Positions 14,172 through 32,563 of a stretch of DNA of 35,894 nt are shown here, one piece after another; within the stretch, counting starts at the first letter, position 1, and each line of letters starts with the position of its first letter. The notes below the pieces were generated by a model that saw only the letters and a program-made list of their open reading frames with translations, was not told the origin of the DNA and made no database searches. A program made the position numbers and the translations under genes. The stretch covers positions 1-35,894 of the forward strand of contig JADZBP010000099.1 in the NCBI GenBank assembly GCA_020852055.1. Reading direction: 5' to 3'. The stretch comes from Candidatus Latescibacterota bacterium (GTDB taxonomy: Bacteria > Latescibacterota > UBA2968 > UBA8231).

Positions 14172-15248
14172 ATGTCCAAGCTCGCCCACCTGTACCACCG
14201 CTACGAGAAATACGCCGCTGTCGTCTGTTTTTTTGGCGGCATCCTCTATGACAGCCTCACCCTGGGCCGCATCGACCGGCTCGCCGACAACCTGATCCTC
14301 CTGGCCTATCTGCTGGTCCTGGGCGGTCTGATCGTGCTCATCGGCCGGATCCAGACGGGCCAATCCCGCCACGCCCGCTTCCTCCAGTACCAGTGGCTCT
14401 ACCCGCTGGCGATCCAGTTCCTGCTGGGCAGCCTCTTCAGCGCCTACGCGGTGTTCTATTTCCAGAGTGTCTCCCTGACCCGCACGGCGGTTTTCTTTGG
14501 CCTCACCCTGCTGCTCCTGGTGGCCAACGAACTGGTCAAGGAGCGGCTGACCAACCTGCCCCTGCTGATGGGCATGTACTGCTTTTCGCTCTTCTCCTTC
14601 TTCATCTTTTTTGTGCCGGTGCTGCTGCACACCATGAATCGCTGGACCTTTGCCCTGGGGGTGGGGTTGAGCGCCCTGGCGCTGGCCGGGGTGCTGGCGG
14701 CCGTTTTCCTGCGGGCCCCGGACCGGACCGGTCTCCGTCCCAGCGGGCTGGTCGGCGGCGGGGTGCTGGCCCTCTTGCTGCTGCTCTACCTGGCGAACTG
14801 GATCCCGCCGGTGCCCCTGGCCCTGCGGACCGGGGGCATCTACCACCGCGCCGAGAAACAGGGCGTCGGGTATCGCGTCGAGATGGTCAGGCCGCCCCGG
14901 CATCTGTTCTGGAAGAAGTCGGAGGAGGTTTTCTACCTGAGGCCGGGAGACCGGGCCTACTGCTTCACCGCTGTCTTCGCCCCCACCGACCTGCATACCA
15001 CCCTCTACCACCAGTGGCAGCGCTACGACGAAAAGCGCGGCGAATGGGTGCAGACCGACCGCATGGGTTACCCGGTCTCGGGCGGACGGGAGGGCGGGTA
15101 TCGCGGCTTCACCTACAAACAGGCCCTCTTGCCGGGGGACTGGCGGGTGGACGTGGAAAACCCCGAGGGGCAACTGCTGGGCCGTCTGGCCTTCAGGGTG
15201 GAGGAGGCAGGGGACCGGAAGCTGGAGTTCATCTCGCTGGAACGCTGA
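14172..15248 (+). CDS. Polytopic membrane protein with C-terminal DUF2914 domain
   Basis: 358 residues. The first ~215 carry about seven hydrophobic helices, for example NLILLAYLLVLGGLIVLIG and AVFFGLTLLLLVANELV. The last ~130 are soluble and match the DUF2914 pattern: TTLYHQWQRYDEKRGEWV, then GGREGGYRGFTYKQ and GDWRVDVENPEGQLLGRLAF. The function of DUF2914 is unknown. Family context suggests an extracytoplasmic domain attached to an inner-membrane core, but no activity is established. It begins 3 bases after the protease stop and has no separate strong ribosome binding site, so translation is probably coupled. That pairing hints at a role in handling, sensing or exporting the giant protease, which is inference only. 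Confidence 0.82.
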   Translation: MSKLAHLYHRYEKYAAVVCFFGGILYDSLTLGRIDRLADNLILLAYLLVLGGLIVLIGRIQTGQSRHARFLQYQWLYPLAIQFLLGSLFSAYAVFYFQSVSLTRTAVFFGLTLLLLVANELVKERLTNLPLLMGMYCFSLFSFFIFFVPVLLHTMNRWTFALGVGLSALALAGVLAAVFLRAPDRTGLRPSGLVGGGVLALLLLLYLANWIPPVPLALRTGGIYHRAEKQGVGYRVEMVRPPRHLFWKKSEEVFYLRPGDRAYCFTAVFAPTDLHTTLYHQWQRYDEKRGEWVQTDRMGYPVSGGREGGYRGFTYKQALLPGDWRVDVENPEGQLLGRLAFRVEEAGDRKLEFISLER

Positions 15249-15350: not shown

Positions 15351-16382
15351 ATGCCGCCATCCGAGAAAAACGAACGCCTGCTCATCGTCGACGACACCCC
15401 CCAGAATCTCCAGGTCCTCGGCACCATCCTGCGCCAGCAGGGGTACAAACTCAATGTCGCCCAGAATGGCCGGCAGGCCCTGGAGGTGGCGAACAAAAAC
15501 CCGCCCGACCTGATCCTGCTCGATGTGATGATGCCGGAGATGGACGGTTTCGAGGCCTGCCGCCACCTCAAGGAAGACCCGCGCACCCGCGATATCCCCA
15601 TCATCTTCCTGACCGCCAAGACCGGGTCTGAGGACATCGTGCAGGGCTTCGAACTGGGCGGGGTGGATTATGTGGGCAAACCCTTCAATCCGGCCGAATT
15701 GCTCAAACGGGTGCAGACCCACCTGGAGTTGAAGGCGGCCCGCGAGCAGATCCAGGGACTGGCCACCAAGTTATCCCACTACCTGCCACCGCCGGTCTAC
15801 GACTCCCTGTTTTCGGGGGAACGGGACGCCCGCATCGAGTCGCGGCGCCGGCCCCTGACCATCTTCTTCACCGACATCGTCAAGTTCACCCCCCGGTCGG
15901 AGCGCATGGAGCCAGCCGAGTTGACCACCTGGCTCAATACCTACCTGAACGACATGGCGCAGATCTGCGCCCAACACGGCGGCACCCTCGACAAGTTCAT
16001 GGGGGACGGGATCATGGGGTTCTTCGGCGATCCCCAGACCAAGGGGGCGCCGGAGGATGCCCTGTCCTGTGTGCGTATGGCCCTGGCCATGTGCCAGCGC
16101 GCCGCCGAACTAGAGGTGCCCATCCGGGTGGGCATTGCCAGCGGCGAATGTACGGTGGGCAACTTTGGCAGTGAGACCCAGATGAGCTACACCATCATCG
16201 GCCGGCAGGTGAACCTGACCGCCCGTTTGGAGAGCAATTCGGAGCCTGGGCGCGTTCTGGTTTCGGAGGGCACGTACGAGCTGATCAAAGGGCAGGTCGA
16301 ATGCCAGCCCCGCGGCCCCATCCTGGTCAAAGGCATCGAACACGAGATCAACACCTTCTGGGTGGAGCGGCTGAAGTCCTGA
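15351..16382 (+). CDS. Response regulator with class III adenylate/guanylate cyclase output
   Basis: 343 residues. The N-terminal receiver (about 8-125) has acidic pocket Asp14-Asp15, phospho-acceptor Asp58 in [13 protein letters not shown] and Lys110 in [13 protein letters not shown] short helical linker contains [13 protein letters not shown]. The class III cyclase domain (about 165-340) keeps both metal aspartates, Asp175 in [10 protein letters not shown] and Asp219 in [14 protein letters not shown]. It also keeps the purine-specifying Lys215 and the transition-state pair Asn288/Arg292 in VNLTARLES. The Lys in KFMGD favours ATP over GTP, so cAMP is the likely product. The enzyme should be cytoplasmic and switched by phosphorylation. 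It heads a run of five further signalling genes and is the only clear effector among them, so it is the natural output of the kinases downstream. Confidence 0.92.
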
Positions 16383-16404
16383 ACGGCGCTCTCAGTTGAA
16401 AACA

Positions 16405-16418
16405 GGCGGTTCGCCGCC
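16405..16418 (+). other. UUCG-tetraloop hairpin between the cyclase and kinase genes
   Basis: GGCGG-TTCG-CCGCC forms a perfect 5-bp stem closed by a UUCG tetraloop, an unusually stable RNA element. It lies in the 52-base gap just before the GAGGA ribosome binding site (16422-16426) of the next gene. No T run follows, so it is more likely a stability or processing element than a terminator. Confidence 0.55.
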
Positions 16419-16434
16419 AGCGAGGAAGTGTTCT

Positions 16435-19400
16435 ATGTGGAAGAAGATCACCGGCCTCAAATTGACGGGCAAGATCAACGCCATGATCTTGCTCACGGTG
16501 CTGGTCATGGCGGGGCTGACGGTGTACGCCCATGGCCGTTTCCAGGCCTTTCAGGTCGAGTTGACTTCGCAGTTGATGAAGAGCACCTCGACCCTGGTGG
16601 CCCTGCCGCGGGCCAACCAGCGGGTGATCGAGATGGGCAGCCTGGTCAACCGGGCACTCACCCTGGACCACGAAGAGCAGTTGCGGGCCACGGAGGAGGA
16701 GCTCAAACTCCAGCGCCAGCACTTTGAGGAGAATATCGCCGAGGCCCGCCGCTTCTACCCCGAGTACGAGGCGCGGCTGGGCAGGATCGAAATGGAGTTC
16801 AGCCAGCTACAGGGGGAGGGCCTGCAGGTGGTGCAGGCCATGCTGCAGGGCAACGCCGCCCAGGCGCGGATGGTGCTGGTCGCTCAGTTCGAGGTGCACT
16901 CCCGCCTGCTGGTGCGCACCATACGCGAGCTGGGCAACGAGATCATCGCCCGCGAGCAGGAAAAGACCGCCGGGGAGAACAGGTTGATCGACGAGGAGAT
17001 CGTCGGCATCTGGAAGGTGCTCATCCTCAGCGCCCTGGTGCTGATGTTGGTGGCCGGCATCTTTGCCCGCGCCCGCATCGTCCGGCCTATTGTTGAACTC
17101 TCCCGCGCCATGAAAAGGTTGGCCGGCGGCGCCACCGACGTCCACCTTGAGGTCAACGGCCGGCGGGATGAGGTGGGGGAGATGCTGGGCAGCTTCCACG
17201 CCTTCCGCGAGGCCTTTGTGGAAAACCAGCGCCTGCGGCAGGAGGAGGAGGCCCGGCGGCAGGAGGCGGCGGAGAACAACCGCCGGCTGCTGGAGCAGAA
17301 TGAGCAACTGGCCCAGTTGCAGCAGGAGGCGCAGCGGACCCGCGAGCAGACCGAACTGATCCTCGGCGCGGCGGGAGAGGGGCTCTTCGGCATGGACACC
17401 GAGGGGCGGATCACCTTCGTCAACCCGGCGGCCTGCCGCATGCTGGGGTACGCTGGCGACGAGATGGTGGGGCAGTCCTCCCACGAGTTGTTCCACCACT
17501 CGCGGCCCGACGGCAAGCCTTATCCGGCCGAGGAGTGCCCGATGCGGGCGGCCTATAAACTCGGGGTGGTGTCGCGGGTGGAGGACGAGGTGCTGTGGCG
17601 CCGCGACGGCAGCGCCCTGCCGGTGGAGTACAACGCCACCCCCATCCTCCGGGGCACCCGGATCCTCGGCGCGGTGATCAGTTTCAACGACACCACCGCC
17701 CGGCGGGCCGCCGCGGAGAAGCTGCGCTCCCGCGAGGAGCAGTTCCGCAAACTGCTCGACGCCACCCCCGACGCCATGCTGGTGTCGGATGGCGAGGGCT
17801 TGATCACCATGATCAACCGCCAGGCCGAGGTGTTGTTGGGGTATACCCGCGAAGAGTTGCTGGGAAAATCGGTGGATAACCTGGTGCCGGAACGTTTCCG
17901 CGCCGGTCACCCCTCGCTGCGGGAGGGGTACGTCCGCAACCCGGATAACCGGGGCATGGGCAGCGGTCGTCCACTGTGGGCTTTGACCAAAGACGGCCGC
18001 GAGATCCCCATCGAGACCAGCCTCAGCCCCATCGAGACCGACGAAGGGCTGATGGTGATCAGTGCCCTGCGCGACATCACCGAGCGCAAACAGGCCGAGG
18101 AAAAGCTGCAGTTGGCGAATTTTCTCAACGACAACGCCCTCGACCTGACCAAGGCCGGCCACTGGCATATACCGCTGCAGGACGAAGCGGGCTGCTACAT
18201 CTCGTCGGAACGGGCCGCCGCCATCTTCGGCGATCCGCCGCGGGAGGGGTGGCGCTATCACCTGATGGACGAGTGGTTCGCCAATGTCACGGCGGGCGAC
18301 AGGGAAGCGGCGGAGGCGACGCTGGAAAACTACAGCGCCGCCCTGGCCGGGACCGTGCCCCGGTACGACGCCATTTATGCCTATAAACGCCCCATCGACG
18401 GCAGGGTCGTGTGGATTCACGCCATCGGCCATGTGGTCAGGGACGCCCAGGGCAACCCCACCGATATGTATGGCGTGACCCAGGACATCACCGAGCAGGT
18501 GCAGGCGGCCAAGGCCCTGGCCGAAGAGCGCGAGCGTTTGAGCGCGGCCATGGCCGGGGCCAACCTCGGCCTCTGGGACTGGCAGGCCGACCCCGACGTG
18601 CTCACCACCAACGATCTATGGTCTGAGATGTTGGGGTACCAGCGGGAGGAACTGGACGCGCTGTACGGCAACACCGCCGCCCGCTGGGCGAATATGGTCT
18701 ACCCCGACGACCTGGACACAGCGGTCTCCAACTTCAAGCGCTTCGTCAACAACGAGATCCATGAGTACCGCATGGAACTGCGGATGAAGACCAAGTCGGG
18801 AAAACCCAAGTGGGTGCTCTCCGCCGGGGATGCGGTGGGCCGGGACGAAACCGGCAAGGTGATCCGGATGGTGGGTATCCACCAGGACATCACCGAGCGC
18901 AAACAGTGGGAGGCGCAGGATCGCCTGATCGCCGCGGTGCGCGATGCCATCTGGCGTCTGGACGAGAGCAGCACCGAACACGACCTGACCGCGGTGATGC
19001 ACCGCGCCCTCACCGAGGCCGAGGTGCCGGTGTGGGCCTGCTGCATCAATCTGGTGGATGCGGCGGTAGACCCGCCGGCGGTGACCATCCACGGCTACAG
19101 CGTCAATGGCGGGCACAATGTCAAGGCGCTGGAACCCCAGCACGTGCCGCTGGTGGTCGATTTCTGGAAGAAGGGCGAGGTGGCCTATAGGCCGGACCTG
19201 CGCCTGGAGGACAGCCTGGGCGAGCGCAAGGGTTTCCCCAGTGGAGCGGTGCTCTGTATCGTCGATATCCCTTTCTCACGCGGCACCCTGGCACTCAACA
19301 GCCACGAGGCAGACGCTTTCGGCCCCTGGCTGGCGACCCTGCAGGAACTGGCCGTCGCCTTGTCCGAGGGTTTGCAGCGCCTCGACGATCTGCGGGCCCT

Positions 19401-22400
19401 GCGGGCGCGGACCGAACAGGCCGAGACCTCGGCCAAGGCCCTGGCCGAGGAGCGCGAGCGCCTGCAGAACATCCTCGACACCAGTCCGGTGAGCATCGCC
19501 TTCTCCACCAAGGGGATCTTCCGCTTCATCAATCCGCGTTTCGCCGAGACCTTTGGGGTCAAGGTCGGCGACCGGGCACCTGATATCTACGTACATGCGC
19601 ACGAGCGGGACACCCTCATCGCTTTGCTGAAGACCGAGGGCAAGGTGCAAAACCACGAGGTGCGCATGTACGACCGCGACCAGCGCGAGCGCGACATGCT
19701 GGTCACCTACCTGCCCATCGACTACGACGGCGAGGAGGGCGTCCTCGGCTGGCTGCTGGACATCACCGAGCGCAAACAGGCCGAGCGCGAGATCAGCGAG
19801 AGCCAGCAGCGCTTCAACCTGGCATTGCGGGGCACCAACGCCGGCCTGTGGGATTGGCACGCGGATACCGGCCAGGTGATCACCAACGAAATCTGGGCCG
19901 AGATGCTGGGGTACACCAAGCAGGAACTGGACGAGTTGTACGGTGCCCGCCTGGAACGCTGGTCCAGCCTGGTGCATCCCGACGACCTGCCCTACGCCAT
20001 GGCGGAACTGAACAAACACGCCAAAGGGGAAACCGAGGATTACCGTGCCGAATACCGGATGCGCACCAAGGGCGGAGGATGGACGTGGATCCTGGACACC
20101 GGCAGGGCCTCGGAGCGCGACGCCGAAGGCAACGCGCTGCGGATGGTGGGCACCCATCTGGACATCACCGAGCGCCGGAGCCGCGAGATGCGGGATGGCA
20201 TCCTGGCGACCATCCGCGAAACCATCTGGCGGCTGGACGCCAACAGCTCGGTAGACGATCTGGCCCAGGTGATCCATCGGGAACTCAGCAGACTAGGCCT
20301 GCCGGTTATCACCTGTGGTTTCAACCTGGTCGACCCCTCGACCGATCCTCCCGCAGTGGAACAGCACTTCTACGAGGTCGGCGCCGGCAACTACACCCAT
20401 CGCCCCGATCCGGCGGGGGTGGAGACGATTGTGGCCTTTTGGCAGAAAGGGGAGGTCGCGTACCGGCGTGATCTGTGGGACGATCCCGACTCGGAGGAGG
20501 CGCAGGGCTTCAAGCGGGATCGGCGCGACGAGATCCGGTGTGTGGTCGATATTCCCTTCGCCCGCGGCACCCTGGCCTTCAACAGCCGGGAGGTGGATGC
20601 CTTCGGGCCCTGGCTCGAGGTGCTGGGTGAACTGCCGGGGGTGCTGAACGAGGGGCTGCAGCGCCTCGATGACCTGCGGGCCCTGCGCGAGCGCACCGAA
20701 CAGGCCGAGGAAGCCAAAGAGGTCGCCGAAGCGGCGTCGCAGGCCAAGGCCGATTTCCTCGCCAATATGTCGCACGAGATCCGCACCCCGATGAACGCCA
20801 TCATCGGCATGGCCCACCTGGCGCTGCGCACCAAGTTAGATCCGAAACAACAGGACTACCTGGACAAGATCCAGCGCTCCGGCCAGCACCTGCTGGGCAT
20901 CATCAACGACATCCTCGACTTCTCGAAGATCGAGGCCGGCAAGCTCGACGTGGAGACCACGGACTTCGAACTGGACAAGGTGCTCGACAACCTGGGCAAC
21001 CTGATCGGCGACAAGGCCACGGCCAAAGGGCTGGAGCTGATCTTCGACCTGCCTCCGGATCTGCCCAACAATCTGCGCGGCGACCCGCTGCGCCTGGGCC
21101 AGGTGCTGATCAACTACGCCAACAATGCGGTGAAGTTCACCGAGAAGGGCGAGATCATCGTCCGCGTTCGCACGGTGGAAGAGGACGAGCGCGGGATCTT
21201 GACGCGTTTCGAGGTGCAGGACTCGGGCATTGGTTTGACCCCGGAGCAGAAGGCGCGGCTCTTCCAGGCCTTCCAGCAGGCCGACACCTCGACCACCCGC
21301 AAGTACGGCGGCACCGGCCTGGGGTTGGCCATCTCAAAAAAACTGGCCGACCTGATGGGTGGCGAGGTGGGGGTGGAGAGCGAGCCGGGCCAGGGCAGCA
21401 TCTTCTGGTTCACCGCCCGTCTGGGTCGGGGTGAGACCAGAAGGAAGGTGCTGCTGCCCGAGCCGGATCTGCGCAACCGGCGTCTGTTGGTGGTGGAGGA
21501 CAATCCGCAGGCCCGGCAGATCATGACCGAGATGCTGGAGAGCATGACCTTCCGGGTGGATGAGGTGGACACCGGGGAGAAGGCCCTGTCGGCGATCTCG
21601 GAGGCCGAGACCATCGGCGATCCCTTCCACATGGTTTTCCTCGACTGGCGCCTGCCTGGCATCGACGGCATCGAGACGGCCCGGCGCATCGCCGCCGCGC
21701 CGCTGAAAAACCCGCCGCACCGGGTGATGGTGACGGCCTACGGGCGCGAGGAGGTCTTCCGCGAGGCCGAAGGGGCGGGCATCGAGATCGTGCTGGTCAA
21801 GCCGGTGAATCCCTCCATCCTCTTCGACGCGGCGGTCCGCGCCCTGGGCGGCCATCTGGTGGAGGAGGAAGGCGGGCCAGTCCAACGCGGGGCGGGCACC
21901 ACCGAGGCGGACCTGGAGTCGATCAAGGGAGCGCGGGTGCTGCTAGTGGAGGACAACGAACTGAATCAGCAGGTAGCCATGGAACTGCTGAGTGAGGGCG
22001 GGTTGGTGGTGGAGTTGGCCGAGAACGGCGAGGTGGCGTTGCGCATGGTAGGGGAGAGATCCTACGACGCGGTGCTGATGGACATGCAGATGCCGGTGAT
22101 GGACGGGGTGGCGGCGACGCAGGAGATCCGCCAGGATGCCCGGTTCGCCAACTTGCCCATCCTCGCCATGACGGCCAATGCCATGGCCGGCGACCGGGAT
22201 CGGTGTCTGGCGGCCGGCATGAACGACCACGTGGCCAAACCCATCGATCCGGAGGTGCTCTTCGCCGCGCTGCTGCGCTGGATTCCGGCGCGAAAGTCCG
22301 AGCCGGCACCGACGCCGACCGCCAAAGCCCCGGCCACCAGGTCTGCTGGTGCCGCGGACCCGCTGGCAGCCATTCCCGGCCTCGATACCCGAGCGGCGCT

Positions 22401-22971
22401 GAAACGGATGCTCAACAAGCGGCCCATGTACGAACGCCTGCTGCGCCAGTTCGCCGCCGAACAGGCAGGGGCGGTGGCCAAGGTGCGCGCCGAACTGGAA
22501 GGTGGGGACCGGGCCAGCGCCGAACGGTCGGCCCATACCCTCAAAGGTATGGCCGGCACTCTGGGCGCCGGGGAGCTGCAGCAGCGGGCGGCGCTACTGG
22601 AACAGGCGCTCAAACAGGAGCGTGCCGTGGCCGAGTGTGAGCAACGGATGCAGTCCGCTGAGGAGGAGTTGCTGCGCGTGGTGGCGGCCCTGAAAGCGGC
22701 CCTGCCGGAGGAAGAGCCCACCAACGGGGTGCCCGCCCCGGCGGTGGCGGTGGACTGGGCCCGGGCCAAAGAGGTGGTGGAGCGATTGCAGGGGCTGCTG
22801 ACTGCGGACGATGCGGAAGCCATCGATCTGTTCGAGCAGGAGGCCGAGCTCCTGCGGCCGGCACTGGGGGCGGGGGCGGCGCCGGTGGAGCAGGGCCTGC
22901 AGGACTGGAACCTGGCGGCGGCGCTGGAGGCGTTGCGCCGGACCCGGGCAGCGCAGCCATCCCTATCGTGA
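16435..22971 (+). CDS. Giant membrane hybrid histidine kinase (HAMP, six PAS, two GAF-like, HisKA, HATPase, two receivers, HPt)
   Basis: About 2178 residues. The ATG at 16435 follows GAGGA by 8 bases and is preferred to a TTG at 16396. Order: TM1 (about 14-32), helical-bundle extracytoplasmic sensor, TM2 (about 192-214), HAMP (about 211-266), coiled coil, PAS1-4 (about 302-822), GAF-like 1 (about 832-989), PAS5 and PAS6 (about 1011-1251), GAF-like 2 (about 1254-1416). HisKA follows with His1447 in [15 protein letters not shown], then HATPase with VQDSGIGL and [10 protein letters not shown]. The receivers carry Asp1737 ([11 protein letters not shown]) and Asp1883 ([12 protein letters not shown]), and HPt has His2034 in [14 protein letters not shown]. 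It ends in a conserved helical tail. All phosphorelay residues are intact. PAS4-GAF1 and PAS6-GAF2 are an internal duplication. The signal is unknown; cytoplasmic PAS/GAF sensing seems dominant. Confidence 0.93.
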
Positions 22972-22982
22972 AGGAGCACTAG

Positions 22983-25900
22983 GTGTCTCAACGCCGCCGG
23001 TTCGCCTTCCCTGTGGTTATCGGTTGGATCGCAGCGCTGTGGTCGGCCGTCTCGGCGCCAAGCGCCCGGGCCCACAACGGCGCCGTGGCCATCGCCGTGC
23101 CGGTGGCGGGCATCCGGGTCGACGGCGACCTCTCGGACTGGCCGGATGACATCCCGGAGACGGCCATCACCCACACCGAATACGGAGACGCGCCGACCGG
23201 CGAGGGGGATCTGAGCGGCTGGCTGCGGGTAGCCTACGAGGGGTCGAAGGAGCGGCTCTACCTCGGGGTGCGGGTGCGCGATGAATCGCTGGTCATCGAC
23301 CGGCAAAACCCGGGGAGCTGGTCATCCCAGGACGGCTGCGAACTCTATCTCGACCTGGGCCACGGCGCCAAGCAATCCCCCGCCAGCCAGTACACCTTTT
23401 ACGGCGATCATGTCGGGACCGATGCCGGCGCCGGGGTGGAGCGGGGATGGCAGCGCACGGCGGAAGGCTACCAGTACGAGTGGGCCCTCGACCTGGGGCG
23501 GCTGCGCCAAGGCCAGGCGCCCCTCTCTGTACCCCGCAGCCTGGGCTTCGATCTGTCCCTGGGAGACCGCGACGCCGATGGCTCTTTTTCCTGGGTCGCC
23601 TGGGGCCCGGGGCCGGCGAAGCTGGAGTCAGTCGACCGGCGGGGCGACCTGTTGCTGGTAGCTAGCGGCGCCGGCAGCGGGCGCGTCCACGGCCGCATCA
23701 GCTGGCCGCAGGGCCAGGGGCTGGTCGGCGCCGCGGTGCGCCTGCAATCGGTGCCTGCCGCAGCCCTGTGGGCGCAGGTGAAGACGGATGCCCGCGGTGA
23801 ATACCGCGCCGAATTGCCCACCGGGCGCTATCGGGTGAGCATGGGGCCGCGCGAGGCGGAACTCGACCTCAGGCCAGGCGAAGAGGTCCGCTATTCTTTC
23901 GAGTTGCCGGCCCCGCGGGGGCGCGAGGTGCCGCTCGGGCCAGGCAAGACCACCGCTGCCGGGGTCGGCACCTGGCGGCAGGATTGGCAGAACTACTCGA
24001 TGCAGGACGGTCTGCCGGACGATGCCGTCTCCTCCCTGTGCCAGAGCGGCGACGGCGTGCTCTGGATCGCCACGGCCAACGGCCACCTCACCGAGTTCGA
24101 CGGTGAAGCCTTCACCACCTACGCTGCTGCGGATGGTCTGCCGCCGGGCGTGGTTCGCGCGTTGGCTGCCGATGGGGAGGGGGCCCTGTGGTTCGGCACG
24201 GATGCCGGCAATCTGGCGCGACTGCACGACGGGCGCCTCACCCTGTTCTCGGCGCAGGACGGGTTGCCCGTGGCCCCGATCCAGACGCTGCTCTTCGATG
24301 AAGCCGGCACGCTCTGGATCGGCACCCAGGGCGGCCTGGTGCGTTTCGACGGGAAGAGTATCCTGCCGCTGACGGTCGCCGATGGGCTTTCCGCAAACGC
24401 GGTCAAGTGCCTGGCGCGGGCCGCGAAGGGCGGGATCTGGATCGGGACCCCGGTGGGGCTGAACTACTACGATGGCAACACCTTCCGCAAGTATTCCGTC
24501 AGTGATGGACTGTCCAGCAACGATATCTGCACCCTGCTCGTCGATGCCGACAGTACCCTGTGGGTGGGAACGGCCGGTGGTGGGATCAATCGCTTCGAGG
24601 GCGAACGCTTCGTCGCTGCCAGGCGGATCGGCGAGCGCCTGCGCATCTCGGGTCTGCTGGAGGACGGCCGTGGCCGGCGCTGGATCGGCACCTCGCTCGA
24701 CGGGCTATACCTCGATGAGGGCGGTTCGTTGACGCAGTTCGGCGACAACCGGGGCCTGGTCGGGACCGTCGTCAACTGCCTGCTGATCGACCGCGAAGGC
24801 ACGCTGTGGGTGGGCACCCACGATGCGGGGCTCTCCCGCTATGAAATGGGCCGGCTGCAGACCTACCGGGCCGGCATCGACCTGCCCGAGTCCCGGGTCA
24901 CCCGTTTACTTCAGGATCGCCGCGGGGCGCTGTGGATCGCCACTGCGGGCGACGGACTGGTCCGGTGGGAGGGCAGTGCCCGGCGGGTGTTCACGACGTC
25001 GGATGGGCTGGGCAACAACGCGGTGTGGGTCCTGCTAGAAGACCGCGACGGGGTACTGTGGGTGGGAACGGAGGGCGGTGTCAGCCGGCTCGTCGGGGAG
25101 CGTTTCGTCCGCCTGGCCACGCCGGAGGGGCTGCCGCCGAACACCTGGGCGCTGCTGCAGGACCACACGGGTGCGGTCTGGATCGGCGCCCAGGGCGGCT
25201 TGGCCCGGTACCATGAGGGGCGCTTCGACCTCTATGGCGCCGAGGACGGCCTGGTCTACGCCGACGCGCGCTGCCTGATGGAGGACCGGCAGGGAGATGT
25301 CTGGATCGGCACGATCTACGGGCTCTCCCGTTATCACGAGGGCCGCTTCACCTCCTTCACCACCGCCGACGGGCTGGCGCACGATGACGTGCGTTCCCTG
25401 CTGGAAGCCAGGGACGGCCAGATCTGGGTCGCCACCCAGGCGGGGGTCAGCCGCTACGACGGCAGCCGTTTCGCGAACCTGACGGTGCAGGAGGGGCTGG
25501 TCAGCAACGACGCCTTGGCCCTGCTGGAGGACCGCGCAGGTACCGTCTGGATCGGCGCCAATGGCGGCGTTGGCCGCTTCGACGGCGAGGTGGTGCAGAC
25601 CCTCCTGCCCCGCGACGGGTTGGCGAGTCGCAGCGCCGGGGCACTGCTGCAGGATCTCGACGGCCGCATCTGGATCGGCGGGCGCGGCGGCCTGACCCGT
25701 TACGAGCCCGCACCTGCGCCTCCGACCGTCCTCCTCACCGAGGTCATGACCGACCGGCCCTACGGCCCGCAGACCGCGGTGCGCATCCCCTCCACGCAGC
25801 GATTCCTCGCCTTCGATTTCCGCGGGGTGAGCCTCAAGACGCGGCCAGAAGGCATGGTCTACCGCTATCGCCTGGGCGGGCCGGAAACCCCCTGGCAGAC

Positions 25901-28805
25901 GACGCGCCGCCGGCGCGTCGAGTTTACCGACCTGGAAGTGGGGGACTACACCTTTGAGGTGCAGGCGGTCAGCCGCGATCTCGGGCGTTCGGTCCAAAAC
26001 GTCCGGACACTCGTCGCCGTGCATCCGCCCTATGGCCAGATCGGGTTGTGGTCGCTGCTCTGCCTGACCCTGGTGGGTTTGGCGGGGGCTGGCGCAAAAC
26101 TCGTGCGGCGCAACCGGCAGGTGCGCACCCAGGAGGCGCGCTTCCGCAATCTGCTCGAATTGGCGCCCGATGCGGTCATCGTCGTCGACCGCGACGGCCG
26201 CATCGTGTTGGTGAATGCGCAGACCGAGAAGATGTTCGACTACCGGCGCGAGGAACTCCTGGGCGAAGCTGTCGAGGTGCTGCTCCCCGAACCGTTTCGG
26301 CAATCCCACGTCGGGCACCGCGCCGGTTTTGTCGCCGAGGCACAGACCCGGCAGATGGGCGGGGAGCGGGTGTTTTCCGGCCGCCGCAAGGACGGGCAGG
26401 TGTTTCCGATCGAGGTCGGCCTCAGCTCGCTGGCCACCGACGAGGGCATGCTGGCCTTTGCCAACGTGCGCGACGTTTCCGAGCGGGAGCGGGTGCAGCG
26501 GGAGTTGGAGAAGGCCAGGGAAGCTGCCGAGGTCGCCCGCGGGGTCGCGGAAGCAGCCTCCCAGGCCAAGGCGGATTTCCTGGCGAACATGTCGCACGAG
26601 ATCCGCACGCCGATGAACGCCATCATCGGCATGGCCCACCTGGCGCTGCGGACCAAGCTGGACCCCAAGCAGCAGGACTACCTCGACAAGATCCAGCGCT
26701 CCGGCCAGCATCTGCTGGGCATCATCAACGACATCCTGGATTTCTCCAAGATCGAGGCCGGCAAACTCGACGTGGAGACGGTGGATTTCGCGCTGGACAA
26801 GGTGCTCGACAATCTGGCCAGCCTGATCGGCGAGAAGGCGGCGGCCAAGGGGCTGGAGCTGATCTTCGACCTGGATCCCGGCCTGCCCAACGACCTGCGC
26901 GGCGATCCCCTGCGCCTGGGGCAGGTCCTGATCAATTATGCCAACAACGCGGTGAAGTTCACCGAAAAGGGCGAGATCGTCGTCCGCATTCGCAAGGTGG
27001 AGGAGACGGAGGCCGGGTTCCTCGCCCGCTTCGAGGTGCAGGACTCGGGTATCGGGCTCACCCCCGAGCAGAAGGCGCGGCTCTTCCAGGCCTTCCAGCA
27101 GGCCGATACCTCGACCACGCGCAAGTTCGGCGGCACCGGGCTGGGCCTGGCTATCTCCAAACGCCTGACCGAACTGATGGGCGGCGAGGTCGGGGTCGAG
27201 AGCGAGGCGGGCCAGGGCAGCACCTTCTGGTTCACGGCGCGCCTGGGCCGGGGCGAGGCGAAGAAGAGGATCTTGCTGCCCGAGCCGGACCTGCGGAACC
27301 GGCGCCTGTTGGTGGTGGAGGACAATCCGCAGGCCCGCCAGATCCTGACCGAGATGCTGGAGAGCATGGCCTTTCGGGTGGACGAGGTGGACAGCGGCGA
27401 GAAGGCCCTCTCGGCCATCTCCGAAGCCGAAACCGCGGGAGATCCCTTCCATCTGGTTTTCCTCGATTGGCGCCTGCCCGGTATCGACGGCATCGAGACG
27501 GCCCGGCGTATCGCCGCCGCGCCCTTGAAAAACCCGCCGCACCGGGTGATGGTGACGGCATACGGCCGGGAAGAGGTCTTTCGCGAGGCCGAAGGGATGG
27601 GCATCGAGATCGTGTTGGTCAAGCCGGTCAACCCTTCGATCCTCTTCGACGCCGTGGTCCGGGCCCTGGGGGGGGAACTGGTGGCGGAGGAGGGGGGACC
27701 CACCCAGCGCGGGATGGGCAGTACCGCTGGTGACCTGGAGTCGATCAAGGGGGCGAGGGTGCTGTTGGTGGAGGACAACGAATTGAACCAGCAGGTGGCG
27801 ATGGAGTTGCTGGCCGAGGGGGGGCTGGCGGTGGAACTGGCCGAGAACGGCGAGGTCGCCCTGCGCCTGGTAGGGGAGAAACCCTACGATGCGGTGTTGA
27901 TGGACATGCAGATGCCGGTGATGGACGGGCTGACGGCCGCACGCGAGATCCGCAAGGACCACCGCTTCGCCAAACTGCCCATCCTGGCCATGACCGCCAA
28001 CGCCATGGCCGGCGACCGGGACAAGTGCCTGGAGGCGGGCATGAACGACCGCGTGGCCAAACCCATCGACCCCGAGGTGTTGTTCGCGACCTTGCTGCGC
28101 TGGATTCCGGCGCGGCACCCCCAAGGAGGAAAAGAGACCATGGCCAGCGCTGCCCCGGCAGCCACTGTGGTCGCGGCGGGCAGCGAAGCGACCGATCCGC
28201 TGGCCGCCATTCCCGGCCTCGACGCAGCGGCGGCGCTCAGGCGCCTGCTCAACAAGCGGCCCATGTACGAGCGGCTGTTGCGGCAGTTCGCCGGCGAGCA
28301 GGCCGGGGCTGTGGGCCTGGTGCGGGCCCAACTGGCAGCCGGTGACGCGGCATCGGCCGAGCGCAGCGCCCACAGCCTCAAGGGCATGGCCGGCACCCTG
28401 GGCGCCGGGGAACTGCAGGCACGGGCGGCGCGCCTCGAACAGGGGATCAAACAGGGGATGCCCGCCGACGAACTGTCCACCTGCGCCGACCAGGCGGAGG
28501 CGGAACTGGTCCGCCTGGTCGGCGCCCTGCAGATGGCCCTGCCACCCGAGGCGGCGACCGGTTCGGCAGCCCCGCCCCCGGATCTGGACTGGGTCCGGGC
28601 CAAAGAGGTGGTGGGCCAACTCGAGACGCTGCTGGAAGCCGACGATGCGGCGGCCATCGACCTCTTCGAGCAGGAAGCCGGGCTGTTGCAGGCGGCCCTG
28701 GGAACCGGGGGGGAGCCGGTGGGCCGGGCGTTACAGGATTGGAACCTGGTGGCGGCGCTGGAGGCGTTGCGCCGGGCCCGGGCGGCAGTGGCCGGGCTTT
28801 CGTGA
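22983..28805 (+). CDS. Two-component regulator propeller hybrid histidine kinase with CBM9-like N-terminus and C-terminal HPt
   Basis: 1940 residues. It starts at GTG 22983, 6 bases after AAGGAG, and 11 bases after the previous stop. A signal peptide (ending near AHNG) precedes a CBM9/DOMON-like domain (about 35-226, IRVDGDLSDWP), a carboxypeptidase-regulatory-like fold (about 230-315), and 14 propeller repeats of the DGL...LWIGT...GL type (about 336-906, two seven-bladed propellers). A Y_Y_Y domain (about 936-1003), one TM helix (about 1020-1042) and PAS follow. The cytoplasmic core is HisKA with His1205, HATPase, receivers with Asp1495 and Asp1641, and HPt with His1797. Propeller kinases of Bacteroidetes sense polysaccharide fragments and usually end in an AraC-type domain; here the end is HPt. 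The outer part therefore probably senses an extracellular glycan or similar ligand. Confidence 0.93.
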   Translation: MSQRRRFAFPVVIGWIAALWSAVSAPSARAHNGAVAIAVPVAGIRVDGDLSDWPDDIPETAITHTEYGDAPTGEGDLSGWLRVAYEGSKERLYLGVRVRDESLVIDRQNPGSWSSQDGCELYLDLGHGAKQSPASQYTFYGDHVGTDAGAGVERGWQRTAEGYQYEWALDLGRLRQGQAPLSVPRSLGFDLSLGDRDADGSFSWVAWGPGPAKLESVDRRGDLLLVASGAGSGRVHGRISWPQGQGLVGAAVRLQSVPAAALWAQVKTDARGEYRAELPTGRYRVSMGPREAELDLRPGEEVRYSFELPAPRGREVPLGPGKTTAAGVGTWRQDWQNYSMQDGLPDDAVSSLCQSGDGVLWIATANGHLTEFDGEAFTTYAAADGLPPGVVRALAADGEGALWFGTDAGNLARLHDGRLTLFSAQDGLPVAPIQTLLFDEAGTLWIGTQGGLVRFDGKSILPLTVADGLSANAVKCLARAAKGGIWIGTPVGLNYYDGNTFRKYSVSDGLSSNDICTLLVDADSTLWVGTAGGGINRFEGERFVAARRIGERLRISGLLEDGRGRRWIGTSLDGLYLDEGGSLTQFGDNRGLVGTVVNCLLIDREGTLWVGTHDAGLSRYEMGRLQTYRAGIDLPESRVTRLLQDRRGALWIATAGDGLVRWEGSARRVFTTSDGLGNNAVWVLLEDRDGVLWVGTEGGVSRLVGERFVRLATPEGLPPNTWALLQDHTGAVWIGAQGGLARYHEGRFDLYGAEDGLVYADARCLMEDRQGDVWIGTIYGLSRYHEGRFTSFTTADGLAHDDVRSLLEARDGQIWVATQAGVSRYDGSRFANLTVQEGLVSNDALALLEDRAGTVWIGANGGVGRFDGEVVQTLLPRDGLASRSAGALLQDLDGRIWIGGRGGLTRYEPAPAPPTVLLTEVMTDRPYGPQTAVRIPSTQRFLAFDFRGVSLKTRPEGMVYRYRLGGPETPWQTTRRRRVEFTDLEVGDYTFEVQAVSRDLGRSVQNVRTLVAVHPPYGQIGLWSLLCLTLVGLAGAGAKLVRRNRQVRTQEARFRNLLELAPDAVIVVDRDGRIVLVNAQTEKMFDYRREELLGEAVEVLLPEPFRQSHVGHRAGFVAEAQTRQMGGERVFSGRRKDGQVFPIEVGLSSLATDEGMLAFANVRDVSERERVQRELEKAREAAEVARGVAEAASQAKADFLANMSHEIRTPMNAIIGMAHLALRTKLDPKQQDYLDKIQRSGQHLLGIINDILDFSKIEAGKLDVETVDFALDKVLDNLASLIGEKAAAKGLELIFDLDPGLPNDLRGDPLRLGQVLINYANNAVKFTEKGEIVVRIRKVEETEAGFLARFEVQDSGIGLTPEQKARLFQAFQQADTSTTRKFGGTGLGLAISKRLTELMGGEVGVESEAGQGSTFWFTARLGRGEAKKRILLPEPDLRNRRLLVVEDNPQARQILTEMLESMAFRVDEVDSGEKALSAISEAETAGDPFHLVFLDWRLPGIDGIETARRIAAAPLKNPPHRVMVTAYGREEVFREAEGMGIEIVLVKPVNPSILFDAVVRALGGELVAEEGGPTQRGMGSTAGDLESIKGARVLLVEDNELNQQVAMELLAEGGLAVELAENGEVALRLVGEKPYDAVLMDMQMPVMDGLTAAREIRKDHRFAKLPILAMTANAMAGDRDKCLEAGMNDRVAKPIDPEVLFATLLRWIPARHPQGGKETMASAAPAATVVAAGSEATDPLAAIPGLDAAAALRRLLNKRPMYERLLRQFAGEQAGAVGLVRAQLAAGDAASAERSAHSLKGMAGTLGAGELQARAARLEQGIKQGMPADELSTCADQAEAELVRLVGALQMALPPEAATGSAAPPPDLDWVRAKEVVGQLETLLEADDAAAIDLFEQEAGLLQAALGTGGEPVGRALQDWNLVAALEALRRARAAVAGLS
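28123..28142 (+). promoter_or_regulatory. Internal in-frame Shine-Dalgarno and ATG ahead of the HPt domain
   Basis: AAGGAGG (28123-28129) is followed after 10 bases by an in-frame ATG (28140-28142, Met1720) in the linker between receiver 2 and HPt. Initiation here would give a free protein of about 220 residues containing HPt (His1797) and the C-terminal tail. The homologous linker in the upstream kinase (around 22290-22340) has neither the SD nor the ATG. Confidence 0.45.
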
Positions 28806-28816: not shown

Positions 28817-30064
28817 ATGCACCAGGGCAGCCGGCTGCTGATTGTGGATGACACCCCGCAGAACCTGCAGGTGTTGGGGGGCATTCTGCGCGAACAGGGG
28901 TACAAGCTGAGTGTGGCGCAGAGCGGGGCGCAGGCCCTGGAGGTGGCCCGGCGGGTGCTGCCGGAGCTGATTCTGCTGGATGTGATGATGCCCGAGATGG
29001 ACGGTTTCGAGGTGTGCCGGCACCTGAAGGCCGACCCGGCGACGGCGGAGATCCCGGTGATCTTCCTGACCGCCAAGACCGAGGCCGAGGACGTGGTGCG
29101 GGGTTTTGAGCTGGGGGCAGTGGACTACGTGACCAAACCTTTCAACCCGCCCGAGTTGCTCAAGCGGGTGCAGACTCATCTCGAACTGGCCCTGCTGCGC
29201 CGCGACCTCGAAAAACAGGTGGAGGAGAAGACCAGCCAGCTGCTCCAGGCCCAACGCCTCGAATCCATGGGGCAACTGGCGGCCGGCATTGCCCACGAGG
29301 TCAACTCGCCCATGCAGTTCATCGGCAACAACACCGACTTCCTCTCGCAGGCGCTAGAAGAGTTGGCCGCTCTGCGGCGGCAGTACCACCAGCTCTACGA
29401 GCAGGCGCGTATCGGGGGGGCGGTGGCGCCGGAACTGCTCGAAAAGATGGCGGTAGCGCTGGAGGCGTGCGAGGTCGAGTACCTGGACAGCGAAACCGAA
29501 AGGGCGCTGGGCAAGATCCAGGAGGGGGTGAAGCGGGTGGTGGAGATCGTCGAGGGCATGCGGGAGCTGGCCCATCCCGGTGGGCGGGAGAAGGTGGCGG
29601 CCGACCTCAACCACCTGGTGCACTCGGCGATAACCGTGTGCCGCAACGAATGGAAATACGTCGCCGACCTGACCCTCGATACGGACCCCGGCCTGGCGCC
29701 GGTGCAGTGTTTCCCCGGCGAGTTGAGTCAGTGTATCGTCAACCTGGTGGTCAACGCCGCCCACGCCATCGCCGAGGCGGCCGGCCCGGGGGGCGCCAAA
29801 GGGCAGATCGGCGTTTCCCTGCGGCCTGCCGGGCCGTGGGCCGAGATCCGGGTGGAAGACAACGGCACCGGCATTCCGCCCGAGGTGCAGCCCCGGATCT
29901 TCGATTTCCTCTTCACCACCAAGGAATTCGGCAAAGGCACGGGCCAGGGCCTTTCGCTGGTGCAGCGGGTGATCCGCGACCACCACGCTGGCGAGGTCTG
30001 CTTCGAGACGGCGATGGGCAAGGGCACCACTTTTCTCCTGCGCCTGCCCCTGAGCCAGGCGTGA
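28817..30064 (+). CDS. Soluble receiver-histidine kinase (copy 1)
   Basis: 415 residues with no membrane segment. The receiver (about 1-120) carries Asp55 in [13 protein letters not shown] and Lys in YVTKPFNPPELL. A coiled-coil linker leads to a kinase core with His160 in GIAHEVNSPMQFIG, an extended helical region, N box CIVNLVVNAAHAI, and G boxes VEDNGTGIP and GTGQGLSLVQ. ATG 28817 is chosen because AAGGAGG overlaps the preceding stop and lies 5-6 bases upstream; the longer frame would invade the propeller kinase. A receiver fused upstream of a kinase suggests it is both a phosphoryl acceptor and a donor, relaying or branching signals from the hybrid kinases. The receiver DNA is nearly identical to that of the next gene. 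Confidence 0.92.
   Translation: MHQGSRLLIVDDTPQNLQVLGGILREQGYKLSVAQSGAQALEVARRVLPELILLDVMMPEMDGFEVCRHLKADPATAEIPVIFLTAKTEAEDVVRGFELGAVDYVTKPFNPPELLKRVQTHLELALLRRDLEKQVEEKTSQLLQAQRLESMGQLAAGIAHEVNSPMQFIGNNTDFLSQALEELAALRRQYHQLYEQARIGGAVAPELLEKMAVALEACEVEYLDSETERALGKIQEGVKRVVEIVEGMRELAHPGGREKVAADLNHLVHSAITVCRNEWKYVADLTLDTDPGLAPVQCFPGELSQCIVNLVVNAAHAIAEAAGPGGAKGQIGVSLRPAGPWAEIRVEDNGTGIPPEVQPRIFDFLFTTKEFGKGTGQGLSLVQRVIRDHHAGEVCFETAMGKGTTFLLRLPLSQA
28856..29205 (+). repeat. Near-identical receiver-coding tract, copy A
   Basis: 350 bases that match 30123-30472 without gaps. I count about seven mismatches (about 98% identity), six of them synonymous; the one replacement is Arg to Gln in C(R/Q)HLKAD. 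Identity drops sharply just outside both ends. Confidence 0.85.
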
Positions 30065-30077
30065 GGCAGGTGTACCC

Positions 30078-31352
30078 ATGAGCGAGGCGACCGAACGCCG
30101 GCTCTTGATCGTGGACGATACCCCGCAGAACCTGCAGGTGCTGGGGGGCATTCTGCGCGAGCAGGGGTACAAGCTGAGTGTGGCGCAGAGCGGGGCGCAG
30201 GCCCTGGAGGTGGCCCGGCGGGTGCTGCCGGAGCTGATTCTGCTGGATGTGATGATGCCCGAGATGGACGGCTTCGAGGTGTGCCAGCACCTGAAGGCCG
30301 ACCCGGCGACGGCGGAGATCCCGGTGATCTTCCTGACCGCCAAGACCGAGGCCGAGGACGTGGTGCGGGGTTTCGAGCTGGGAGCAGTGGACTACGTGAC
30401 CAAACCCTTCAACCCGCCCGAGTTGCTCAAGCGGGTGCAGACTCATCTCGAACTGGCCCTGCTGCGCCGCGATCTGGAGCGACAGGTCGCGGAGAAAACC
30501 GGCCAGCTCCGCCGCGAACACGAGGAGCGCCTGCAGGCCGAGCACAAGCTGGCCCAGGCCCGGCGGCTGGAAGGTCTGGGCCGGCTGGCCTTTGGCGTAG
30601 CCCACGAGATCAACACCCCCTTGCAGGCCGTGGCCAGCAACCTGCAATTCCTCGGTGAAACCTTGCCCGAGTTGCAGCGGGGCCTGGAGCAGTACACCCG
30701 CCTGCACGCCCTGGTGCGGGCCGGGCAGGTGGATGTGGCCCAGCTCAAAGCCATCGAGGAGGAACTGGCTGCCAACGGGTTCGACTACCTGGCCGGGGAA
30801 TGGCCCAAGGCCCTGGCCAAGGGGCGCAGCGGGGTGGAACGGGTGGGCCATATCGTGCGCGCCATGCAGGAACTGGTCCACTCCAGCGACGCGCAGAAGG
30901 TGCCCACCGATCTCAATCAGTTGGTCGCCAGCACCGCCGAGGAGTTGCACCCGCGCTGGCAGCCGGTGGCCGAGTTGAAACTGGATCTGGAGCCGGACCT
31001 GCCCCTGGTGCCCTGCCTGCCGGGGGATATGCGCCAGGTGCTGGTCCACCTGATGGCCAATGCGGTGGACGCGGTACAGGCGGCGGACCGCGGCCGGGGA
31101 CGGCTCCTGCTTTCCACCCGCAGCCAGGCCAACGAGGTGGTGTTGCGCCTCGGCGACACCGGCGCCGGCATTCCCGCCCGGGCCCGCGACCGGATCTTCG
31201 ATCCCTTCTTCACCACCAAGGAGGTGGGGGCGGGTATGGGCATGGGGTTGGCCGTGGTTTACGAGGTGGTCGTCAACCGCCTCGGCGGAGCGATTGCCTT
31301 CGAGTCCGAGGTAGGCCGGGGCACTGTTTTTGCCGTACACCTGCCGCGTTAG
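30078..31352 (+). CDS. Soluble receiver-histidine kinase (copy 2)
   Basis: 424 residues. The receiver (about 7-122) has Asp57 and is almost identical to that of the preceding gene. A long coiled-coil linker rich in Glu/Arg leads to HisKA with His176 in GVAHEINTPLQAVASN and an ATPase domain with GDTGAGIPARARDRIFDPF and GMGMGLAVV. The kinase halves of the two neighbours are clearly more diverged than the receivers, with different N and G box wording. No membrane segment is seen. The gene begins 13 bases after the previous stop with a modest GAGGCAGGT ribosome binding site. It probably takes phosphate on its receiver from an upstream kinase or HPt and modulates its own kinase activity; targets could be the cyclase or the HD-GYP-like protein. 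Confidence 0.92.
   Translation: MSEATERRLLIVDDTPQNLQVLGGILREQGYKLSVAQSGAQALEVARRVLPELILLDVMMPEMDGFEVCQHLKADPATAEIPVIFLTAKTEAEDVVRGFELGAVDYVTKPFNPPELLKRVQTHLELALLRRDLERQVAEKTGQLRREHEERLQAEHKLAQARRLEGLGRLAFGVAHEINTPLQAVASNLQFLGETLPELQRGLEQYTRLHALVRAGQVDVAQLKAIEEELAANGFDYLAGEWPKALAKGRSGVERVGHIVRAMQELVHSSDAQKVPTDLNQLVASTAEELHPRWQPVAELKLDLEPDLPLVPCLPGDMRQVLVHLMANAVDAVQAADRGRGRLLLSTRSQANEVVLRLGDTGAGIPARARDRIFDPFFTTKEVGAGMGMGLAVVYEVVVNRLGGAIAFESEVGRGTVFAVHLPR
30123..30472 (+). repeat. Near-identical receiver-coding tract, copy B
   Basis: Partner of 28856-29205 (about 98% identical over 350 bases). The gap between the copies is about 920 bases. Confidence 0.85.
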
Positions 31353-31375: not shown

Positions 31376-32563
31376 ATGGCCGAGTGCCGCATCCTTTTTG
31401 TCGACGATGAACCCGATCTGCTGGAGGGCATCGGCCGCATGCTCTTTCGCGAACGCCAGCGCTGGGAGATGCATTTTGCCCCCAGCGGGGTTGCCGGCCT
31501 GGCCGAGTTGGCCAAAGCGCCTTTCGCCGTGGTGGTGGCGGACATGCGCATGCCGCAGATGGACGGCATCGAGTTCCTCAAGCGGGTGCGCCAGGCCGCG
31601 CCGGATACGGTGCGCATGATGCTGACCGGCAACACCGATCAGGAAACCGCCATCAAGGCGGTCAACGACGGCAACGTGTTCCGCTTCATGACCAAGCCGG
31701 TCGAACGCGAGACCCTGGTGAAGGTGATCGAGGCCGGCGTCGAACAGCACCGGCTCGTCACCGCCGAGAAGGAGTTGCTCAGCGGCACCCTCATCGGCAG
31801 CGTGCATCTGCTCACCGAGTTGCTCTCCGAGACCGATCCAGACTCCTTCGCCCACGCCCTCTGGCTGCGCGATATGGCGCGCACCGCGGTCCGGGAGATC
31901 AAGGTCCCCAATGCCTGGGAGGTCATCCTGGCCGCCACCCTCTCCCGCATCAGCTACCTCACCCTGCCCACCAGCCTCGCCAACAAGGCCCGCGCCCGGC
32001 GCGAACTCTCGCCCCCCGAGCAGGAGGTGGTGGCCCAACTGCCGGCCGTGGGGGCCAGGCTCATCGGCAAGATCCCCCGCCTGGAAGGGGTGAGCAAGAT
32101 CGTGCTCTATCTGGGGAAGAACTTCGACGGCAGTGGCCTGCCCGACGACAAGGTGGCCGGCCAGGAGATCCCCATGGGGTCGCGTATCCTGCGCATCTTC
32201 GACGACCTGGCCCTTGTATCCAATGCCGAGAAATCGCGGTACCGCATCCTCAGCCTCATGCAGGAGCGCCGCGGCTGGTACGACCTGGACCTGCTGGACC
32301 GGCTCTTCCCGGTCTTTGTGCCTCCCCGCAGCGCCGGGGAGGGCGACGAGGAGGTGGTGGAGGTCACGGTCGACGAGTTGCATCTGGGCGACCGGGTGCT
32401 GGCCAATGTCATGAGCGAGGATGGGCAGTTGATCCTGGCGCAGGGCAACCGCATCTCGCCGGCCTCCCTCGAAAAGATCCGGGTGAGTTCGGTGCTCACC
32501 GGGGTCAAGGAGCCCATCCTCATCGAGAAACGCTTCGCCAAGGAAAAAAAGGATTCCGCTTGA
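31376..32563 (+). CDS. Response regulator with degenerate HD-GYP-like output domain
   Basis: 395 residues. The receiver (about 4-120) is intact: Asp10/Asp11, Asp56 in VVVADMRMPQMDG, Lys107 in RFMTKPVE. The second half resembles HD-GYP c-di-GMP phosphodiesterases of the RpfG type, most clearly in NFDGSGLPDDKVAGQEIPMGSRILRIFDDLA. However, the HD of HDIGK is replaced by Leu-Ser near 189-190 (AATLSRISYLTLP), the HHE motif is missing (VLYLGKNFDG) and GYP reads GLP. It is therefore likely to be a catalytically dead binding or scaffold domain. A C-terminal region of about 70 residues (VTVDELHLGDRVLANVMSED onward) looks like a small beta domain. ATG 31376 has GAGGGAGAG 6 bases upstream. It is the last gene of the signalling run. 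Confidence 0.85.
   Translation: MAECRILFVDDEPDLLEGIGRMLFRERQRWEMHFAPSGVAGLAELAKAPFAVVVADMRMPQMDGIEFLKRVRQAAPDTVRMMLTGNTDQETAIKAVNDGNVFRFMTKPVERETLVKVIEAGVEQHRLVTAEKELLSGTLIGSVHLLTELLSETDPDSFAHALWLRDMARTAVREIKVPNAWEVILAATLSRISYLTLPTSLANKARARRELSPPEQEVVAQLPAVGARLIGKIPRLEGVSKIVLYLGKNFDGSGLPDDKVAGQEIPMGSRILRIFDDLALVSNAEKSRYRILSLMQERRGWYDLDLLDRLFPVFVPPRSAGEGDEEVVEVTVDELHLGDRVLANVMSEDGQLILAQGNRISPASLEKIRVSSVLTGVKEPILIEKRFAKEKKDSA

Follow-up and report, generated by a model that had tools for sequence, protein, structure and literature searches.

Receiver-led histidine kinases of the kind considered here include LvrB, in which, according to the available part of the LvrB paper, a long helix joins receiver and kinase, phosphorylation of the receiver forms a coiled coil that frees the kinase, and linker lengths favor multiples of seven. 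Phosphotransfer from LvrA to LvrB provides experimental precedent for a hybrid kinase that drives a receiver-led kinase (available text of PMC5863495), and transfer from CheA3 to CheS3 provides such a precedent for a donor kinase acting on a receiver-led kinase (available text of PMC3868531). The window analyzed here, the whole of a 35,894-nucleotide contig (JADZBP010000099.1) from a Candidatus Latescibacterota bacterium (assembly GCA_020852055.1), carries two adjacent genes for proteins of this kind, R1K1 and R2K2, with nearly identical receivers (R1 and R2) and diverged kinase halves (K1 and K2). The best account of this pattern is very probably recent ectopic gene conversion between the two receivers, which are direct copies 1267 bases apart. 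For the reading as a whole, i.e., conversion combined with an Hpt-fed receiver address shared by two LvrB-like kinases, we estimate a probability of roughly 0.6.

As far as the Lvr papers are available, R1K1 and R2K2 resemble LvrB in their Rec-DHp-CA order, in a length of about 380–425 residues, in a probable long helix, modeled for R1K1, running from receiver α5 through a signaling helix into DHp, and in having an upstream hybrid kinase in the operon; in addition, R1K1 E149 and G152 align with LvrB E150 and G153, residues described as knee and pivot. They differ in that the available Lvr text describes one such kinase, while here two adjacent kinases carry one receiver sequence, in that the receiver is remote from that of LvrB (it is nearest to PleD in the PDB, at 44%), and in that both upstream hybrid kinases here, H1 and H2, carry an Hpt domain. 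CheS3 from Rhodospirillum centenum also has an N-terminal receiver that is phosphorylated by a second kinase of its cluster and controls the C-terminal kinase, but has two receivers, a PAS domain, and an HWE kinase, is described as being under inhibitory control, and has CheA3 as its donor (PMC3868531, as far as available). In the GacS receiver cluster of Pseudomonas brassicacearum, the receivers of the hybrid kinases either separate the kinase from the Hpt domain or come last, and the available text speaks of no recent near-identical DNA tract (PMC8175716). The same partly available source presents avoidance of cross-talk as a major pressure that separates specificity residues after duplication of classical two-component pairs (PMC8175716). 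A receiver that is made alike again while the kinases are kept different would be expected if shared wiring were selected, or at least tolerated.

When bacterial paralogues undergo ectopic gene conversion, nearby homologues typically come to share a short near-identical tract with sharp edges. The tract described here is likewise short and sharp-edged, and differs from ectopic conversion in general in being limited to the input domain of two diverged kinases. Our literature search found nothing on concerted evolution of two-component receiver paralogs, and a twin-kinase, one-receiver arrangement was not found described among the literature matches listed; in the available text of PMC4603909, gene conversion is named only as a possibility. 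Both the process and the protein class are known, and the novelty is modest and lies in the arrangement.

Base-by-base comparison of positions 28856–29205 with 30123–30472 (offset 1267) identified 7 mismatches in 350 bases, at R1 positions 28874, 28894, 29005, 29019, 29107, 29116, and 29140. An earlier note on this DNA had counted about seven, nearly all silent; the number is exactly seven, and six are silent, the exception (29019) changing Arg68 to Gln. Over the tract, 115 of 116 residues are the same, and the longest exact run common to both copies is 110 bases. Beyond the tract, the match at this offset falls to 8 to 21 bases per 50-base window; on the 3′ side, this low match is due in part to the 14-residue length difference between R1K1 and R2K2. 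The kinase halves, described in the earlier note as strongly diverged, indeed agree at only 108 of the 264 residues that align (41%), and their silent sites approach saturation.

The two genes were compared codon by codon on their protein alignment, and silent differences were counted among degenerate codons for the same residue. R1K1 and R2K2 differ silently at 5 of 8 such codons before the tract, 6 of 112 inside it, and 5 of 11 just after it, and at 42 of about 105–106 in the kinase halves; the receiver counts vary by slice, with 7/112 for a three-way slice that reaches one codon into the flank and 11/119 for the whole domain with its flanks. Unrelated codon choice, as derived from the codon usage of eight window genes, would yield 52.3 silent differences in the 112 tract codons (6 seen) and 50.9 in 105 codons of the kinase half (42 seen), indicating that the tract is young and that the kinase halves approach saturation. 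A scan for the stretch most depleted in silent differences placed the edges at 28853–29203 (6/113; likelihood ratio 48.2), and none of 500 permutations reached this value (permutation maximum 29.7). The segment corresponds to residues 13 to 129 of R1K1, from the start of α1 to the start of the signaling helix. The proteins align without gaps on both sides of the edges, where the silent sites are diverged; 3′ of the tract, for example, DLEKQVEEKTSQ in one protein still matches DLERQVAEKTGQ in the other with diverged DNA. Such a young patch within older homology is the signature of gene conversion, and the R1/R2 tract combines low silent divergence with sharp edges in diverged homology. The best reading of these counts is that K1 and K2 split long ago and that their receivers were recently made nearly identical.

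These figures also bear on a scenario in which the entire receiver-kinase gene was recently duplicated in tandem and one kinase half then diverged quickly or was replaced. While the two genes adjoin and have the same orientation and domain order, as such a duplication would leave them, the 41% identity of the kinase halves, their nearly saturated silent sites (42/105 versus 50.9 expected), and the sharp tract edges inside coding homology make it highly improbable. Strong selection on protein or codon use could in principle keep two receivers alike without recombination, and the identity of 115 of 116 residues would suit it. A tandem pair of cold-shock genes in the same window (CspA-like, named by eye; 3340–3890, minus strand), however, has 28 of 66 silent differences at 68 of 70 like residues, showing that protein constraint alone does not explain the R1/R2 tract. 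Likewise, R1 and a third receiver of the same family (R3, fused to a cyclase domain 13 kb upstream) differ silently at 36 of 87 codons, and the flanks within the same receiver fold are diverged; with all three controls diverged at silent sites, explanation by selection is refuted and retains practically no weight. The R1/R2 identity is right, and chance and protein constraint are not its cause.

Among 261 within-locus receiver pairs in 120 loci (some places were counted twice, as loci overlap), R1 and R2 are the most alike (97% DNA identity over the whole domain); in the second most alike pair (89%), the first receiver of H1 is matched with that of H2, both also in this window. Within the window's own assembly, 40 of 216 first-look candidates were scored and 43 matches to R1 were listed; among these, the best other match is R3 (15375–15727; 77% DNA), the remaining matches of >250 bases have 65–71% DNA identity, and the rest are shorter. 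R3 and R1 share 90 of 116 residues (78%) over the tract. An older conversion between R3 and R1/R2 was considered and rejected, as the colder middle stretch was reached by 17/200 and 15/200 permutations. Similar tracts in relatives were also rejected, with no cold segment in the tandem receivers of a class relative (G036:C29) or in two receivers of G000:C53 (77/200, 134/200, and 135/200 permutations).

The source assembly (5.63 Mb; 333 contigs; 92% complete; 7% contaminated) is of a kind in which a receiver could have been duplicated or mis-joined by the assembler, or in which strains could have been mixed. Assemblers usually run into difficulty at repeats of about read length, and the longest exact run here, at 110 bases, is shorter than common reads. 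Moreover, the copies differ at seven places, their 5′ and 3′ neighbors differ, both frames are open throughout, and no further copy on another contig was found among the 43 assembly matches listed. With R3 as outgroup, four of the seven mismatches are new in R1, two are new in R2, and one is undecided; both copies have thus been altered since the conversion, which argues against a simple assembly error. We consider such an error quite unlikely to underlie the R1/R2 identity. As to the direction of conversion, the flanks and the seven mismatches give a mixed signal with the same outgroup.

Searches of 60 and then 64 phylum genomes, the window's own included, revealed no recognizable orthologue of either R1K1 or R2K2; the 63 other genomes include four from the same genus. 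The best-scoring outside kinase matches in the phylum are 45% (K1) and 41% (K2) identical, both in one genome (G052), and some shorter matches to K2 reach 44%. In a scan of 84,980 species genomes, which may omit entries for the window's own genome or very close ones, the best 80 loci include a top match of 41% over residues 6–413 (L011); other matches spanning the full length have segments of up to 49% (L012). For a receiver tree, 115 receivers were found, 54 with <52% identity to R1 were excluded, and 61 were used, a set thus selected by similarity to R1. In the resulting quick tree, support by the Shimodaira–Hasegawa-like approximate likelihood ratio test (SH-aLRT) was 86 for R1, R2, and R3 together and 94 for R1 with R2; no group containing window receivers reached 95. 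The window receivers group by locus and not by output domain (kinase, kinase, cyclase). The three tandem receivers of G036:C29 group together too (SH-aLRT 84), their outputs by Pfam being an ATPase-type kinase half, a weak GAF match, and a HisKA-ATPase kinase; these one-family receivers (L111 66–434, 1165–1542, and 4276–4653) have different outputs, and the first two are 80% identical in DNA. Within-locus re-use of a receiver recurs in this relative, but is old. In the Bacteroidetes loci L032 and L034, in contrast, the tandem receivers cluster with their orthologues (97 and 87).

Among 16 relatives of K1 picked for inspection from 46 kinases, most have PAS-like inputs rather than receivers, indicating that receiver and kinase have different histories. 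This observation would suit a domain transplant, in which one kinase gained its receiver as a new domain copied from the neighbor. Only 3 of the 16 have a receiver-like N-terminal part with at least 30% identity to R1 over at least 100 residues (L011, 30/100; L021, 62/121; L138, 41/110); L021 alone exceeds 40% over >45 residues, L012 has a weak receiver-like N-terminal part (23/109), and the remaining ones are PAS-like by eye. A fresh insertion, however, would bring its own flanks or stop at non-homologous sequence, while the tract starts in the region of the first receiver strand and ends in a helix, with flanking proteins that align gap-free and have diverged silent sites. Because the RLLIVDD start and the DLExQVxEKTxQ helix are common to both genes, in the same register and outside the tract, a fresh transplant is the less likely account, although both are common motifs; we judge it unlikely. 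The earlier note had left recent conversion and transplant side by side; the sharp edges and diverged flanks favor conversion.

Pfam searches identified PF00072 (residues 8–119), PF00512 (151–191), and PF02518 (302–413) in R1K1, and PF00072 (10–121), PF00512 (170–201; 22.4 bits, below the cut-off of 26.9), and PF02518 (317–423) in R2K2; no further Pfam families were found in either protein at E 0.001. In both proteins, the receiver is directly N-terminal to DHp-CA, the arrangement of a Rec-controlled kinase, and the phosphorylatable Asp and His are present (D55 and H160 in R1K1; D57 and H176 in R2K2). By sequence, R1K1 and R2K2 look like Rec-controlled histidine kinases of the LvrB type ("hybrid response regulators"). 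Membership in the LvrB family proper (NCBIfam NF047466) was rejected, as R1K1 scores 128.5 bits and R2K2 112.1 bits versus a curated cut-off of 500; the two proteins are therefore LvrB-like, but not LvrB. The structure model of R1K1 (mean predicted local distance difference test score (pLDDT) 87.6; predicted template modeling score 0.46) is confident per domain and contains an unbroken helix at residues 111–200, comprising receiver α5, the signaling helix, and the first DHp helix. The six best PDB fold matches to this model over its full length are LvrB chains (E down to 5.9e-24), and LvrB also matches R1K1 by sequence.

Each kinase retains its own signaling helix, the converted tract stopping at the helix start. 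At exactly 14 residues, the length difference between the helices (R2K2 longer) equals two heptads, such that one receiver could drive K1 and K2 in the same phase. A motif search yielded a small, hand-made set of 19 receiver-kinase proteins, the window pair included, in which the K-to-H linker lengths occupy four of seven heptad phases (10, 3, 3, and 3 proteins), apparently in line with the published heptad preference; D-to-H lengths are less clean, with all seven phases occupied over 21 proteins. The heptad phase of the R1K1 and R2K2 helices against LvrB is blurred by indels. If confirmed, R1K1 and R2K2 would offer a natural case of one receiver driving two kinase cores via helices two heptads apart, on which the coiled-coil model of LvrB could readily be tested.

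Partner choice in two-component systems is set by residues in α1 and β5-α5. In this presumed donor face, R2 is identical to R1 (18/18 in α1 and 13/13 in β5-α5), R3 is similar (16/18 and 11/13), and the receiver of the downstream REC-HD protein is different (6/18 and 5/13). Since α1 and β5-α5 are identical, and since the sole residue difference between R1 and R2 is in α3 (model helix 63–72), away from α1 and from the α4-β5-α5 face, it is fair to infer the same phosphodonor for both. A shared-donor mechanism is plausible, and the balance leans towards it. Two sensors, the PAS-based H1 and the propeller-based H2, would feed their Hpt domains, which may act as phosphodonors for R1, R2, and probably R3. 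Once phosphorylated, the R1 and R2 receivers would re-dimerize and zip up the signaling helix, as described for LvrB, and K1 and K2 would be switched on, or off as in CheS3. K1 and/or K2 could act on another target, the first candidate being the separately addressed REC-HD protein; one input address might thus serve two different kinase outputs and a cyclase.

R1 and R2 could also be competing phosphate sinks or heterodimer partners of one donor, with their identity balancing K1 against K2 instead of providing a common on-switch, and with phosphorylation possibly inhibitory. CheA3 phosphorylates REC1 of CheS3 and is proposed thereby to restrain the CheS3 kinase (PMC3868531, as far as available), and identical α4-β5-α5 faces would permit mixed receiver contacts. 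Mixed dimers would be disfavored, however, by the 14-residue helix difference and by kinase halves that are about 59% different, and we regard this arrangement as improbable. Concerted input evolution, in which repeated conversion keeps one receiver "address" for several outputs while kinase and cyclase outputs diverge freely, and in which the repeats also allow deletion of K1, is a doubtful extension of the conversion reading; if true, loss of K1 between frame-matched direct repeats would join R1 to K2 in frame, and the output would become an exchangeable cassette.

Several points weigh against conversion with a shared, Hpt-fed address. Conversion is inferred from one genome, since no orthologue was found in the phylum genomes searched, and the assembly of that genome has 333 contigs and 7% contamination. 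The flanks need not have been homologous beforehand, as the motifs LLIVDD and an LExxVxERTxxL-like helix are widespread, the latter in many unrelated N-terminal parts. K1 resembles kinases from other bacteria (50% to L011) more than it resembles K2, a point that also speaks for a transplant, and a quick tree of 46 kinases puts K1 and K2 in a group of 14 (94) without resolving them as sisters and with three long branches, including K2. Active-site residues of kinase and receiver other than the D and H were judged by eye. The R1K1 helix is modeled with a pLDDT of only 65–72 at residues 141–160, and the model superposes loosely on whole LvrB (template modeling score 0.35–0.40; root-mean-square deviation about 24 Å). 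Equal heptad phase is expected by chance 1 in 7 times; a D-to-H distance of 105 in both R1K1 and LvrB was set aside as evidence, as it arises only via compensating indels (K-to-H 53 versus 55) and proves little. Finally, the face of R3 is not clearly more conserved than the whole R3 tract (90/116).

R1K1 and R2K2 are part of an operon-like run of six genes on one strand (R3-cyclase, H1, H2, R1K1, R2K2, and REC-HD; Table 1), with gaps of 11–23 bases; the gap before H1 is 13 or 52 bases depending on the choice of start codon.

Table 1. Features of the receiver-kinase locus (window coordinates; aa, amino acids).
Feature	Position	Strand	Basis or remark
R3: third receiver of the same family + adenylate/guanylate cyclase domain	15351..16382	+	77% DNA to R1 (BLAST), 257/350 over tract
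H1: HAMP/PAS-array hybrid kinase, ends HisKA-HATPase-REC-REC-Hpt; candidate phosphodonor	16396..22971	+	start TTG 16396 or ATG 16435
H2: propeller (Reg_prop, Y_Y_Y)-PAS hybrid kinase, ends HisKA-HATPase-REC-REC-Hpt; candidate phosphodonor	22983..28805	+	Pfam
R1K1: receiver + signaling helix + HisKA-HATPase kinase, 415 aa	28817..30064	+	Pfam PF00072, PF00512, PF02518; structure model
5′ flank outside tract (RLLIVDD codons, first receiver strand)	28832..28852	+	protein same; silent differences at 5/7 codons (5/8 with next codon)
Copy 1 of near-identical receiver tract	28853..29203	+	coldest segment in silent-difference scan; earlier note 28856–29205
3′ flank outside tract (signaling helix start)	29204..29248	+	11/15 aligned residues same; silent differences 5/11
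R2K2: receiver + signaling helix (14 residues longer) + HisKA-HATPase kinase, 424 aa	30078..31352	+	Pfam, alignment
Copy 2 of near-identical receiver tract	30120..30470	+	same scan; earlier note 30123–30472
REC-HD_5 response regulator, different receiver face; candidate K1/K2 target	31376..32563	+	domain search, face comparison

H1 and H2 (window 16396–28805) have a common HisKA-HATPase-REC-REC-Hpt half with 81% DNA identity over 2.3 kb and near-identical Hpt H-boxes, and wholly different sensor halves (HAMP and PAS domains in H1 versus a Reg_prop propeller with one PAS in H2). Recent conversion in the common halves was rejected: silent differences are even (183/595), and 27 of 40 permutations reach the best segment. 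This even silent divergence indicates an older module duplication with no recent tract. The operon presents the same pattern twice at different ages, a shared signaling module on different other halves. As judged by eye, the REC-HD_5 protein has SR and NFDGSGLP in place of the HD and HH..GYP residues that HD-GYP phosphodiesterases carry; it is possibly a non-catalytic output related to cyclic di-GMP.

Elsewhere in the window, a match to the WelO5-like halogenase family (PF22814; E 1.1e-20) at 4653–5531 (minus strand) lies beside a PhyH dioxygenase (5604–6434, plus strand) and a MarR regulator (6530–6976, plus strand); these genes may form a small halogenation locus. A 2326-residue protein encoded at 7188–14168 combines an M6 peptidase match with FG-GAP repeats and ASPIC/UnbV, and carries a FlgD-type Ig domain close to its end. 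Rfam gave no match on the window at gathering scores. Among the compared loci, that of Rhodocyclus purpureus (L041) contains a tandem array at 12192–14758 with a step of about 192 bases and copies 82–92% alike. Neighboring genes of Sulfuritalea, chemoreceptor-like by eye (L061 1–629, 2427–3118, and 3980–4671; L079 4525–5215 and 7147–7837), have signaling ends that are 85–92% identical and different N-terminal parts, and represent another module pattern in neighboring genes.

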